DNA of 64,000 nt, taken from an uncultured bacterium (GTDB taxonomy: Bacteria > Cyanobacteriota > Vampirovibrionia > Gastranaerophilales > Gastranaerophilaceae). The notes below the pieces were generated by a model. It did no database searches and was not told the DNA's origin. It saw only the letters and a program-made list of their open reading frames with translations. A program made the translations under genes and the position numbers. The stretch is from the NCBI GenBank assembly GCA_949290355.1, contig CASERN010000006.1:1-64000 (forward strand). Direction: 5' to 3'. Positions 10,724-41,387 of this stretch are shown piece by piece; position 1 is the first letter of the stretch; every line of letters begins with the position of its first letter.

Positions 10724-12202
10724 TTAAATTTCATCAATAATTTCTATAGGAGCGTTGCACCCTATTTCTTCTCTTGATAATACAGTGATATTATTCATAT
10801 AGTTACTTAGTAAAGAAAAAATAAGATGTCTTAATTCTAGTGGCACTATGAGTTTAGGATTTTCGATGTTCATTGATTCGATTTTCTTTTGCATTTTTTC
10901 TGCAAATTTTTCTGCAAATCCTGCATCTATTCTTATAATAAAGTCATTCCCTTCTTCAAAGTTTGGCGTGAATTTTTCAAGTGTTTTTTCAGAGACTTCA
11001 AAAGCTGAAATTATTCCATCTGCGTTTATATTATTTTTACAAATTTGTCTTGAAAGAGATAAACGAATTTTCTTTATAAGATCAGCATTTGTACTATTTT
11101 GGATGTAATCATTAATTTTTTCAAAAATATACACTATATCTTTAATAGATACTCTTTCTCGTATTAAACTTGTTAAAATATATCTCAAATCTGCAAGACT
11201 TATTACATCTGGAATAATATTCTCAATTAAAAATTCATTTGTATCACTTACGATGTTAATGTATTTATCTAAATCTTCGTAATCTAAAAGTTCATCAACA
11301 TATTTGACAGCACAAAACTCTAATGCTCTTGCAATAAATTCTGAACCGTTAATACCTTTTTGCCAAAAATCTTTAGTTTTTTCTTTTTCTATCCAAACAA
11401 TTTTTCGTCCAGTAATTTTGTCTATATCATAGACGGAATTTTTAATTTTTTTCTCAAGATGTAAGTCATCTGTGAAAAACATTAGAAAATTCGGGTATAC
11501 ATTAGCTTTGAAAACATCCAGTCCTCTTATTTTTATACTAAATTCATAAGGGTTTAAGTTTTCGTCATCTTGAAATAAAATTTTAGGTATTACATATCCT
11601 AGTTCTTCTGTTAGTTTAAGTCTTGATTTTACAGTTTCAGCAACAAGCTCCTCTTCTTGAATTTCTTGTGAGGAGTCAATGTACCCTAAAATTTCTTCAC
11701 TCAAATGTATTGATAATTTTTCTTCTTTTAGTCTTGGGTACATTGCGTTTGGGGAAGTTGCTTTTGCTAGTTCCTTTTTTAAATCTTCTAATTCTTTTAG
11801 ACCTGCAGAAATTCTATCGTTCAATTTTTTTCTTGATACAGAAGCAGGAGCTTCGCCTTCGAGTTCTTTTTTTATTTTGGCTATTTTATTTTTTTGATCA
11901 CGAATTTTGCTTTGTATATCCAGACAAATATCATAAGGGGATTGTTCGGGAGATAACATTTTTTCCATCTGGCTTTTAAATGATGAAATATTTATTGTAT
12001 CAGCATTCAAATCCCCAGATGCAGGTTCTGTTTCTTTCATAAATATACAATTACAAAGAATTTGTCCATCATCTGCTTCAACTTCTTGCATACTATAAAG
12101 TTCCCAATTATTCATAGACATTTCATTTAAAAGGTTTTGAAGTTCTTGAGTATTTTCACTAGAGCATGTTTTTATTACATACTGCATTTTTTTATTTAAC
12201 AT
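10724..12202 (-). CDS. Soluble FlhA/SctV cytoplasmic-domain protein with N-terminal DUF4177-like domain
   Basis: A 492-residue protein with no transmembrane segment. Residues ~5-55 look like a DUF4177-type fold (YVIKT...NNWELYSMQEV). Residues ~85-155 are a charged coiled coil. From about residue 165 to the end it follows the cytoplasmic domain of FlhA/LcrD (FHIPEP) proteins: ELGYVIPK near 200, LNPYEFSIKIRG, IIPDVISLADLRYIL, and RERVSIKDI near 350, then VLSREEI near the C-terminus. In normal FlhA this domain hangs below eight membrane helices and docks chaperones and ATPase regulators; here the membrane part is absent. It lies 10 nt after udp in a likely operon. Confidence 0.87.
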   Translation of the reverse strand: MLNKKMQYVIKTCSSENTQELQNLLNEMSMNNWELYSMQEVEADDGQILCNCIFMKETEPASGDLNADTINISSFKSQMEKMLSPEQSPYDICLDIQSKIRDQKNKIAKIKKELEGEAPASVSRKKLNDRISAGLKELEDLKKELAKATSPNAMYPRLKEEKLSIHLSEEILGYIDSSQEIQEEELVAETVKSRLKLTEELGYVIPKILFQDDENLNPYEFSIKIRGLDVFKANVYPNFLMFFTDDLHLEKKIKNSVYDIDKITGRKIVWIEKEKTKDFWQKGINGSEFIARALEFCAVKYVDELLDYEDLDKYINIVSDTNEFLIENIIPDVISLADLRYILTSLIRERVSIKDIVYIFEKINDYIQNSTNADLIKKIRLSLSRQICKNNINADGIISAFEVSEKTLEKFTPNFEEGNDFIIRIDAGFAEKFAEKMQKKIESMNIENPKLIVPLELRHLIFSLLSNYMNNITVLSREEIGCNAPIEIIDEI

Positions 12203-12212
12203 GACTAACTCC

Positions 12213-12983
12213 TTATGATTTGTCTTTTGTAATTAGTATTTTAATTGCATCTATTGCTGTTTTTATTGCTTTATCAGTATCATGAATTACAGGATTTTCC
12301 AACCCCAATTTTTCTCTTTCTTGGTTGGCTACTGTTAAAAATACAGAACCAACTTTAACTTTTAGAAAACTTCCTACAACGAATAATGCTGCAGATTCCA
12401 TTTCAGATGCCAAACAACCTAATTTTTTCCACGCTTCCCACTTATTAATAAGTTCGTAATTTACAGGCATTTTTTCCGGATTATGTTGTCCGTAAAAAGA
12501 ATCTTTACATTCTACTATGCCAGCATGATATTCAAAACCTAAATTTTTAGCAGATTGAACTAATGCATTGATTATATCTAAATTTGCAACAGCAGGAAAT
12601 TCTATTGGAGCATATTCTTTTGTAGTCCCTTCCATTCTAATTGCGCCTGTTGCAATCACGATATCCCCACCTTTTACGTTGATATCCATTCCGCCGCAGG
12701 TACCGACTCTGATAAATGTTTTTGCTCCGATATTTACAAGTTCTTCTAGTGCAATTGAAGCAGAAGGCCCTCCTATACCGGTGGATGTAACACTCACTTT
12801 TGTCCCATCAATATAGCCGGTATAGGTTGTAAATTCTCTTCTGTCTGCTATAAGTTGAGCATCTTCGAAATATTCGGCAATTTTTTTGCATCTTTTAGGA
12901 TCTCCGGGTAATATAACATATTCCCCGACATCTCCTTCTTTTAGACCTATATGATATTGTTCTCCATTTTCCGAATATTTCAT
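12213..12983 (-). CDS. udp: Uridine phosphorylase
   Basis: A 256-residue nucleoside phosphorylase (PNP/UDP family), converting uridine and phosphate to uracil and ribose-1-phosphate for pyrimidine salvage. Motifs: [15 protein letters not shown] at the N-terminus (phosphate loop), [24 protein letters not shown], and [14 protein letters not shown], where the Met-Glu binds ribose. Full length for the family. AAGGAG precedes the ATG. Short gaps tie it to ompH upstream and to the FlhA-like gene downstream. Confidence 0.93.
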
Positions 12984-25127: not shown

Positions 25128-26474
25128 ATGGATGGATTAGATACAAGCAAGCTTGATGATTTAAAACAAAAAGTTAAGAATAAGTTAGAAGAGACAGAAT
25201 TATTCCGTTTCAAAGGATCTGTATCTAAGCTTTTAGGGTTAACAGTTGAGGTTAAATTACCAGGTTTAAAAGTTGGCGACTTATGTTATATCGAGACTAA
25301 AGACGGGAGGAAAAAACCTGCAGAGGTTCAGGCTTTTAAAGGAGAAGTCGCTCAATTACTTTTGTTATATGACGGAGAAGGTATTGGCCAAGGCAGCTTG
25401 GTTACATCTACAGGAAGACCTATTACGATACCTGTTGGGGACTTTTTGCTTGGACGTTTGATTAATCCTATGGGAGAGCCAATAGATGGTAGACCGCTAG
25501 ATACAACGGGTGCAACGTGGCGCCCAGTAGAGGGCCCCCCGCCAGGCCCTTTTGAAAGACCTATTATAACTGAAATTTTTTCAACAGGAGTAAGAGCTAT
25601 AGATAGTTGTATGACTATGGGCTGCGGACAGCGTCTTGGATTATTTGCAGGATCTGGGGTGGGTAAAAGTACTCTTTTGGGTATGATAGCCAGAAATTCA
25701 GATGCTGATGTAAACGTTGTAGCATTGATTGGTGAACGTGGTCGTGAGGTTAAAGAGTTTGTAGAAGATTCTTTGGGTGAAAAAGGTATGGCTAAATCGG
25801 TTTTAGTCTGTTCTACAGGGGATCAGCCTCCTTTGATTCGTCAAAAAGCTTTGCTTACAGCTACTGCAGTATGTGAATATTTTAGAGATCAAGGGAAAAA
25901 AGTTTTTTTAATGACTGATACAGTTACACGTTGTGCTATGGCTGGTCGTGAGGTTGGTTTGTCTCTAGGAGAACCGCCTACAATGAAAGGGTATCCTCCA
26001 TCAATTTTTTCTTGGCTTCAAAAAGTTTTGGAAAGAGCAGGAAATAGTCCAAAAGGCTCAGTAACTGCATTGTATACAGTTTTGATGGAAGGTGATGATA
26101 TTTCTGATCCTATTGTAGATATTGTTCGTGGTATTGTAGACGGGCATATATTTCTATCAAGAAAAGTTGCTGAAATGAATCATTACCCGGCAATTGATGT
26201 TTTGGGGAGTATTTCAAGGCTTATGTCTTCCATTGTAACTCCCGAACACAGGGAAGCTGCAGGTAAAATGCGTGCGATTATGGCTTTGTACCGTGAAAAC
26301 AAAGATTTGATTGATGTTGGAATGTATCAACCAGGGACAAATCCAAAGTTAGATATAGCAATTGAAATGATGCCCAAAATTAATGCATTCTTACAACAAA
26401 GAACTTCTGATATTGTAAGTATGGATACTACTGTAAGTACTTTAGTAGATATGATGCGAGGGGTTGAGATTTAA
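25128..26474 (+). CDS. FliI/SctN-family type III secretion ATPase
   Basis: A 448-residue RecA-fold hexameric ATPase that energises unfolding and entry of substrates in flagellar and injectisome export. Seen: an N-terminal beta-barrel region (1-~95), GRPLDTTG and GPPPGPFERP, Walker A GLFAGSGVGKST near 172-183, GERGREVKEF near 203, DTVTRCAMAGREVGLSLGEPPTMKGYPPS split over 260-290, and DPIVDIVRGIVDGHIFLSR near 325. The GEPP..GYPPS block separates it from F1/V-type ATPases and Rho. It stands alone, with no FliH, FliJ or other export gene adjacent, and seems to have its own leaderless promoter. A soluble FlhA-C protein occurs ~13 kb away. Confidence 0.9.
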   Translation: MDGLDTSKLDDLKQKVKNKLEETELFRFKGSVSKLLGLTVEVKLPGLKVGDLCYIETKDGRKKPAEVQAFKGEVAQLLLLYDGEGIGQGSLVTSTGRPITIPVGDFLLGRLINPMGEPIDGRPLDTTGATWRPVEGPPPGPFERPIITEIFSTGVRAIDSCMTMGCGQRLGLFAGSGVGKSTLLGMIARNSDADVNVVALIGERGREVKEFVEDSLGEKGMAKSVLVCSTGDQPPLIRQKALLTATAVCEYFRDQGKKVFLMTDTVTRCAMAGREVGLSLGEPPTMKGYPPSIFSWLQKVLERAGNSPKGSVTALYTVLMEGDDISDPIVDIVRGIVDGHIFLSRKVAEMNHYPAIDVLGSISRLMSSIVTPEHREAAGKMRAIMALYRENKDLIDVGMYQPGTNPKLDIAIEMMPKINAFLQQRTSDIVSMDTTVSTLVDMMRGVEI

Positions 26475-39635: not shown

Positions 39636-41387
39636 ATGGGATTGGCAGCTTCACAAGCGAGATTTTTAGCCATAACGGCAAGAAAGATGAATTGCGAATT
39701 TCAATCTATGCAAATTGCGCAAGAAAAACTTTCTGTTACTCGTGATTTGGAAAAAGCTGCAGAAGACTATCAAAATTCGTTAAATGCAACAAAATTAGTA
39801 TGGGATTCAGGTGATAATTCATATGATTTGTCTTTTGATTTAATGACAACTCCATCAGCATTAAATGATTACCAACCATTTTTGATAACAGATACACAAG
39901 GTAAACTTGTATTATCTCAAAAAATGTTTAATGCAGCATTGAGCGCAGGTGTCATAGATAGTAAAGGGAATCCTACAGGAAGTTTTTCTATGGGAGGGAC
40001 TGCAACTAATGATGGATCTCGTAATGCGTTTTTATATCAATTGGGTGTTCAAGGAGTTATAAATTCTTCAACAATTGATAGTATAGAAGGCCTTGGTGAT
40101 TTCGGTTATACATTGACAGGAGCAGGTGGAGAAGTTGCCGATAAGACTCTTGCTAATATAATGCCGACTAACCAATTTATTTCATATTTGACAAATACAG
40201 AATATACCCAAGGTCAAAGCATTCCTGAAGGGGCAAGTGTTGGTGATAAAGTTTACGGTATAAATATCGCATCTGTTCTATTCCCTGATATTACAGGCTC
40301 AGGGGATACTGATGAAGATAAAGAAGCAGATAAAGATGCTCAATTAAAAAAGATGTTTTGTGAGACAACTTCACCTTCTAATACTGATAAAACACCTGAA
40401 AATGGCGGTTCAAAAGGTCAAATTATAATTACAAAAGATGGAGATGCTCTTGATTATAATGAAATTAAAGAATTAACTCTTGGAGATTTTTTAAGCGGTA
40501 AATATGAAATGACCATAGTTAATGGGGAATCATCAGATTTTGAAAAATACTCTAAAGCATTATTGGCTGGAATGGCAGATTTATTAGGGGTGAATAACAG
40601 CTTTGATATTCAAGGTTTAAATGTTGATTCATTAACTCAACAGGCATTAAAGGATGCTCTTGTTTCGACAGAAAATAACTTAAACTTATCAAGCGCTTCA
40701 GTTGAATCTTCTGGAAAGACTGTTCATGACTCAATTACAAATGCCTATACTGCAGCACAAGGTGCTAACTGTATTGTAAAAGGTAATGGTTGTTATTCTG
40801 TAAGTATTTCAAATATGTTAAAATCTTATTTGACAAACTTTGCAATTGCAATGGATGGTTATGATTCTGGATATAGTGTTGATGCCGATTCTTCAAAGGA
40901 CAGTTTGTATGTTACAAGTGATCCTGGATATTATTTTGCTATAAAAAATGATAACGAAGGTACAATCAGCGCTCAAGATATGTTAAATGCTGATTTTTAT
41001 AACCAGATATATAACCAGATTTGTATGAATGGAGCTTCTACAGATTCAAATAAAATGCAAAGAGTTAATGATTCAGAATATCTTACTCATGCATTGAAAA
41101 ATGGTCAATTGTTTATATCTGCATTGAATGATGATGGATATTTTTACCAAACAAATTACAATACTTTTAATGATTATATTGGAGAGGTTACTGATGACGA
41201 TGCAATAGCAAGAGCAGAAGCTGAATATAATGTTAAAAAGAGTAAATTAAACTCAAAAGAAGAATCTTTAGAAGTGAAGATGAAAAATATTGATACAGAA
41301 TTGTCATCATTAACGACAGAGTATGATTCTGTAAAGAACTTAATAAGTAAGAACGTAGAAAAAGTATTTACTATGTTCAGCACGTAA
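39636..41387 (+). CDS. Axial/hook-like exported protein candidate
   Basis: A 583-residue protein with no signal peptide or membrane helix. The N-terminal ~60 residues ([17 protein letters not shown], then an amphipathic helix) and the C-terminal ~70 residues ([19 protein letters not shown]...[14 protein letters not shown]) are predicted coiled helices, with a long variable Gly/Ser/Asp-rich middle. This layout is shared by type III-exported flagellar axial proteins, and NxxxQARxLAITARK-like starts are reminiscent of them. The sigma-28-like promoter upstream agrees. GAAAGGAAAAAG is the ribosome binding site. No known family is claimed. Confidence 0.55.

Follow-up and report, generated by a model that had tools for sequence, protein, structure and literature searches.

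In flagella and injectisomes, export order is set at a docking platform, the cytoplasmic domain of FlhA (FlhA-C), which is known as a part of the export gate. The Gastranaerophilales, the order concerned here, are gut relatives of cyanobacteria. In Salmonella FlhA, the pocket formed by D456, F459 and T490 binds export chaperones, while the linker residues E351, W354 and D356 bind the adjacent subunit at its D1 and D3 and so stabilize the ring; W354 can also fill the neighbour's pocket, where linker residues compete with chaperones (PMC8166844). The open-close motion of Salmonella FlhA is driven by Gly-368 of the GYXLI motif (PMC9431611). Gut Melainabacteria have been reported to carry incomplete flagellar gene sets, which were earlier interpreted as reduced flagella (PMC3787301, PMC4040986).

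We analyzed a 64,000-nucleotide stretch of DNA from an uncultured member of this order (the window), whose genome (G000, 1.85 Mb) is 99.96% complete, and characterized in it a gene for FlhA-C on its own. The initial annotation had placed this gene at 10724-12202 without giving a strand; the coordinates were upheld and the strand is minus.

10724..12202, minus strand: stand-alone FlhA-C protein, whole open reading frame, 492 aa, soluble by sequence (open reading frame call; C-terminal half of Pfam FHIPEP; no transmembrane helix; orthologues)

Read on the minus strand, the frame starts with ATG and has an AGGAG motif just 5' of it. Residues 139-481 matched Pfam FHIPEP (E=1.5e-48) at profile positions 309-653 of 657, from which it follows that the cytoplasmic half alone is present. 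The protein scored 157.5 bits with the NCBIfam FlhA model, below the cut-off of 772 and hence not as a full FlhA, and also fell below the cut-off of the curated SctV model (84.6 vs 692 bits). Its solved relatives were exclusively FlhA/SctV cytoplasmic domains (hmmsearch, 1e-47). The AlphaFold model, for which 30 orthologues were used, had a mean pLDDT of 78, with most of the C-terminal part at 80-93, and in fold searches it matched FlhA-C (Foldseek, 6ch1, E 3.1e-21, target TM 0.81, ~340 columns) as well as the MxiA, YscV and CdsV structures. The four-domain D1-D4 fold of the cytoplasmic domain was thus recovered by both Foldseek and hmmsearch, and the multi-helix membrane gate domain was absent by Pfam profile coverage and hydropathy. 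With a peak 19-residue hydropathy of 1.42, compared with 2.93 for the full FlhA of the same genome, the protein has no transmembrane helix. The last ~340 residues of the stand-alone protein are the FlhA/SctV cytoplasmic domain; the initial annotation, which had read the C-terminal ~330 residues as an FlhA/LcrD cytoplasmic domain free of transmembrane helices and had proposed the fold comparison reported here, was correct in this respect. In comparison with FlhA and SctV (FlhA-C structures PDB 6ch1, 3a5i, 3mix and 7amy), the stand-alone protein shares the D1-D4 fold, the linker and D3. It differs in lacking the transmembrane gate and the pocket aromatic and Thr, in having Ser for the Gly of GYXLI, and in carrying a beta-alpha-beta-beta domain and a coiled coil in place of the membrane part.

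These two replacing elements lie at the N-terminus:

12032..12187, minus strand: N-terminal beta-alpha-beta-beta domain, residues 6-57, weakly DUF4177-like (AlphaFold pLDDT 91; DUF4177 in 14 of 30 orthologues)
11759..11938, minus strand: helical/coiled-coil stalk, residues 89-148, at the position of the last transmembrane helix and linker start of FlhA (two predicted helices)

AlphaFold modelled the first ~60 residues as a beta-alpha-beta-beta domain with a pLDDT of 91. The name DUF4177-like, under which this domain was first described, could be kept in part: DUF4177 (PF13783) matched 14 of the 30 orthologues, with a best E of 3.2e-4, but the window protein itself gave no match at E<=10, short of a convincing score, and we regard the label as fair but weak. 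Neither the profile search nor the fold search against the PDB returned a significant match for the domain, and no function transferable to it was found in the literature on DUF4177. It is present in one copy per genome and has 11 invariant residues, with a mean column identity of 61% (alignment A2) as against 52% over all of alignment A1. The two stalk helices that AlphaFold predicted, at residues 89-115 and 124-148, are consistent with the proposed coiled coil.

The same genome encodes a complete export gate. Its second FHIPEP gene (C11:299039) encodes a full-length FlhA of 701 aa, here FlhA2, and lies in a run of genes for FliE, FliF, a 338-aa protein, FliH and FlhA. FliR, FliQ, FliP and FliO are clustered with a FliN-type C-ring protein on contig C8; FlhB is encoded at C11:652752, with FliK-like (Flg_hook, 6.6e-6), weakly FliJ-like and FlgE/F/G-type proteins nearby, and contig C7 encodes FlgB-, FlgC- and FlgF/G-type rod proteins. 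The window contributes the export ATPase:

25128..26474, plus strand: FliI-type ATPase for export by the second system (77% identity with the FliI beside FlhA2 in L027, from another family of the order)

The genome search suggested in the initial annotation thus recovered FliP, FliQ, FliR and FlhB together with a full-length FlhA. The membrane-only FlhA half that it had also envisaged was not seen, as an adjacent half was present in 0 of 33 loci and the FlhA of G000 is full length, with its own C-domain. The idea that the gate is missing from the genome was rejected, since all five gate proteins were found. The stand-alone protein is therefore additional to a complete gate: its domain has been duplicated and detached, while the gate of G000 is intact. 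Flagellin was absent from all 35 sampled genomes of the window's family, G000 included. At the place expected for FliG, between FliF and FliH, we observed a conserved protein of 310-340 aa (L022:12233-13249, L063:12771-13715 and L027:7971-8930). No significant Pfam match was found for this FliF-FliH-interval protein, which is possibly a highly divergent FliG or a sorting-platform protein.

Genomes of the other families of the order mostly carry two full-length FlhA proteins (about 870 and 710 bits), with two FliP in most, two FlhB in many, and flagellins. Both the tree and sequence comparison grouped the FlhA of the flagellin-less family of the window with the second type, FlhA2, and in flagellated families the FlhA2-type system coexists with a true flagellum. 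These groupings indicate that FlhA2 is the gate protein of a second flagellar-type system, a filament-less one, for which we coin the name T3SS-2, and that the FlhA, FliP and FlhB copies of the window's family belong to this second paralogous system and are not remnants of a flagellum. A description of T3SS-2 as a separate system was not found in the open-licence literature. The window also holds a gene for a protein that may be handled by this system:

39636..41387, plus strand: 583-aa protein with N-terminal MGLAASQAR, which the second system may export as a substrate or use as a filament subunit (N-terminal signature)

It belongs to a family of proteins (MGxAASQAR) of about 100-990 aa that begin with MG(L/M)AASQAR(F/Y)LxLTARK... 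Several of these end in a C-terminal helix closing with KNIExSFKTF, in a layout that resembles flagellin or needle subunits. Further members were seen at L022:2586-3560 and L022:4871-5203 and in L206-L208, L212-L219 and L222. Such proteins were present in 13 of 13 tested genomes of FlhA2-bearing lineages (1-9 copies each) and in 0 of 29 others, an association that amounts to one clade; we consider them candidate T3SS-2 substrates or filament.

Orthologues of the stand-alone protein were detected in 55 of 57 Gastranaerophilales genomes, flagellated and non-flagellated alike. The two without it were G034 (98% complete, FlhA2 kept) and G054 (83% complete); two others, G038 and G048 (78-82% complete), had the stand-alone protein and no detected FlhA2. 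In a larger sample that overlaps the first, 172 of the 173 members of the order with any match carry it (counted from the table). Outside the order, the class members checked have FlhA and no stand-alone orthologue. That the stand-alone protein and FlhA2 are both confined to one order counts as one evolutionary association and not as independent co-occurrence. In the tree, all stand-alone sequences formed one clade (100/100), which grouped with FlhA2 and a 594-aa hybrid protein (99/96), away from the flagellar FlhA1. The exact sister of the clade was poorly supported (89/71), and long branches were present. On this topology the stand-alone protein derives from the FlhA2 lineage. Its closest paralogue, FlhA2 (G000:C11:299039), has the same linker motif, (N/S)PxxMY, and differs from it in being full length and far more conserved, with the pocket D/Y/T and the glycine kept. 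Between close orthologues of the stand-alone gene dN/dS was about 0.05-0.07, with dS near saturation (the pair L055/L053 was left out because of an indel), and the gene is under purifying selection. Orthologues in 55 of 57 genomes together with this low dN/dS rule out a chance open reading frame or decay.

The gene lies about 10 bp from the gene upstream:

12213..12983, minus strand: upstream gene, nucleoside-phosphorylase-like (identity by sequence reading)

At most loci of the window's family, BamA-like, Skp-like and phosphorylase-like genes precede the stand-alone gene, and neighbours vary between families, with IF3/L20-like genes in another one (all names by sequence reading). Operon logic was rejected as a guide to function, as the neighbours differ between families. 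No membrane half adjoined the stand-alone gene at any of the 33 loci, and FlhA2 is complete elsewhere. The initial annotation had named two findings that would refute it, a fold other than FlhA-C and such a split gene, and neither was encountered. T3SS-2 genes never adjoined the stand-alone gene in the loci read; they came nearest in two genomes of one genus, at a distance of ~15 kb.

To describe what the detached domain has kept and what it has changed, residues were counted by column in stand-alone (n=31), FlhA1 (n=12) and FlhA2 (n=10) sequences aligned to Salmonella FlhA-C. The features concerned are as follows:

11729..11755, minus strand: linker (FlhA-L) motif SPNAMYPRL, residues 150-158 (column counts)
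11687..11701, minus strand: GYXLI switch position, residues 168-172 (invariant Ser168 in place of Gly and invariant Glu170 in place of Arg)
11492..11719, minus strand: FlhA-C D1, first part, residues 162-237 (alignment to Salmonella FlhA-C)
11348..11491, minus strand: FlhA-C D2, residues 238-285 (17% identical to FlhA2 of the same genome; fixed Trp280, absent from FlhA2)
11411..11422, minus strand: equivalents of Salmonella D456/F459, Asp261 kept and Thr264 lost (alignment)
11288..11347, minus strand: FlhA-C D1, second part, residues 286-305, with Arg292 at Salmonella T490 (lost) (alignment)
11051..11287, minus strand: FlhA-C D3, the ring-forming domain in FlhA, residues 306-384 (best-conserved portion of the FlhA-C part)
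10742..11050, minus strand: FlhA-C D4, residues 385-487 (fastest-diverging portion)

The linker motif (N/S)PxxMY is common to the stand-alone protein and FlhA2 (NPNRMYERL) and absent from the flagellar FlhA1. In the stand-alone proteins its P and M/F were present in 31/31 and its Y/F in 30/31, and P-x-x-M-Y was found in 10/10 FlhA2; Salmonella W354 falls at M154, as placed by hand counting in a gappy linker. In the pocket, D456 was retained in 30/31 stand-alone proteins, and an aromatic at 459 was found in none of the 31, as compared with 12/12 FlhA1 (F) and 10/10 FlhA2 (Y). Likewise, Thr at 490 was present in 0/31 stand-alone proteins, 12/12 FlhA1 and 9/10 FlhA2. The first residue of GYXLI, Gly in all FlhA1 and FlhA2, was S168 in 31/31 stand-alone proteins, and E170 was likewise present in 31/31. 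Besides S168 and E170, the stand-alone proteins have newly fixed F210, W280 and Y308, with Y314 also listed among the fixed aromatics; these four aromatics are absent from both FlhA1 and FlhA2. In D3, 16 of 22 conserved columns were identical to FlhA2, and conservation between families of the order was 45% for the stand-alone protein and 92% for FlhA2, suggesting that ring contacts may differ; in D4 the corresponding values were 24% and 83%. Judged by the residues fixed and lost, the pattern reflects a new constrained function and not decay. The loss of the pocket residues and of the GYXLI glycine, together with the fixation of residues of its own, argues that the protein does not simply repeat the normal docking job of FlhA-C. 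Of the two possibilities raised in the initial annotation, docking to another gate or reuse of the domain, either may apply on the sequence evidence.

Other detached FlhA-C domains were observed. In some relatives within the order, hybrids of ~594 aa (L179:5042-6823, L184:1272-3056 and L183:5123-6907) open with the N-domain known from the FliF-FliH-interval protein (E 1e-22), which is followed by a hydrophobic transmembrane hairpin and then by FlhA-C; the gate domain is missing. They carry a detached FlhA-C of the same lineage, and their N-terminal part and membrane hairpin are unlike the stand-alone protein; their domain composition ties detached FlhA-C domains to the cytosolic complex of T3SS-2. 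Elsewhere in the phylum, in another class-level lineage, FlhA-C is fused to HTH_17 (L172:5315-6556 and L193:1477-2730, genomes G060 and G071). These proteins, of 413 and 417 aa, come from two species of one genus and are 65% identical (HTH E 1e-11 to 4e-13); by their domains they look like transcription regulators with the export platform domain as sensor. As in the stand-alone protein, a soluble detached FlhA-C is joined to a small N-terminal partner, whereas the DNA-binding head, separate origin and long branch set them apart. Finally, genome G076 (L174, L175, L176 and L177) has, in addition to full-length FlhA genes, several degenerate or detached FlhA-C proteins of about 370-590 aa. No paper on a soluble or stand-alone FlhA-C, or on an HTH-FlhA-C fusion, was found in the open-licence literature.

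On the sequence comparisons above, the reading that we place first, although it falls just short of being probable, is that the stand-alone protein is a neofunctionalised soluble paralogue of FlhA2-C, an accessory subunit acting on the FlhA2 ring. It is ranked first because the linker motif is kept and because the related hybrid carries the N-domain of the FliF-FliH-interval protein. As a cytosolic accessory subunit of T3SS-2, the protein would bind the FlhA2 ring through its linker and D1/D3, or assemble into a separate ring underneath. With the linker "plug" present and the pocket "socket" missing, it would cover docking sites without offering new ones, and would in this way control the timing of substrate admission or the choice of substrates. 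The N-terminal domain, carried on the coiled-coil stalk, would report a cytosolic signal or bind a partner. The protein is probably a modulator of the export machine and not a component of the membrane pore. A role in T3SS-2 is favoured by the persistence of the gene in the window's family, where flagellin was not found. Against the accessory-subunit reading, the gene lies in housekeeping operons away from the T3SS-2 genes; moreover, as G034 keeps FlhA2 without the stand-alone gene, T3SS-2 can work without the protein.

The housekeeping setting would suit a rather unlikely alternative, a soluble regulator acting off the gate and outside the ring, which would bind the ATPase/stalk or substrate complexes (or chaperones by another surface) and couple the state of export to gene expression or stability, as it suggests steady expression independent of the flagellar genes. 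The better conservation of the N-domain than of the FlhA-C part (61% vs 52%) and the HTH_17 fusions, in which FlhA-C would serve as a sensor, also speak for such a regulator; however, a DNA-binding domain is absent from the window protein, the fusions are a separate long branch and not orthologues, and the canonical chaperone pocket is gone. The protein might instead form its own ring under the gate as an alternative docking platform, with re-shaped D1/D2 bringing another class of substrate, e.g., MGxAASQAR, to FlhA2. We consider this unlikely: the newly fixed aromatics (F210, W280, Y308 and Y314) and the MGxAASQAR set of T3SS-2 genomes speak for such a platform, but G034 has MGxAASQAR proteins and FlhA2 without the stand-alone protein, which is therefore not needed for the class, and the switch glycine required for domain motion in Salmonella is replaced.

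That the T3SS-2 of G034 does without the protein could also be read as a sign that the domain has left protein export entirely for another cellular role, to which the operons with BamA/Skp/phosphorylase or, in another family, IF3/L20 genes might be a hint. The absence of a neighbour conserved across the order and the much faster evolution of the FlhA-C part than of FlhA2 point the same way, yet the protein is confined to the lineage with T3SS-2 and retains the FlhA2-type linker motif, and we hold a departure from export to be improbable. That it is shorter than FlhA might suggest a split or decayed FlhA, whether a pseudogene or an annotation artefact, which we find scarcely credible in view of its order-wide conservation and a dN/dS far below 1. 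A broken or split FlhA was rejected on the grounds of the complete FlhA2 elsewhere, the lack of an adjacent half and the purifying selection.

Returning to the accessory-subunit reading, a broader proposal built on the domain architectures is offered tentatively, and we think it could well be wrong: FlhA-C would be a reusable soluble module in non-photosynthetic Cyanobacteriota, freed from the gate on several occasions and given new heads by fusion (beta-alpha-beta-beta, HTH and the N-domain of the FliF-FliH-interval protein). In the Gastranaerophilales, one such protein would have become a core regulator throughout the order and, as a plug lacking a socket, would bind and close the docking sites of the T3SS-2 gate ring. 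The present data recast the "incomplete flagella" of gut Melainabacteria, at least for FlhA, FliP and FlhB, as a second paralogous flagellar-type system. A conserved, natural stand-alone FlhA-C that has lost the pocket and kept the linker and ring domain amounts to a ready-made separation-of-function version of this platform, useful for probing how export order depends on the contacts made by linker, pocket and ring.
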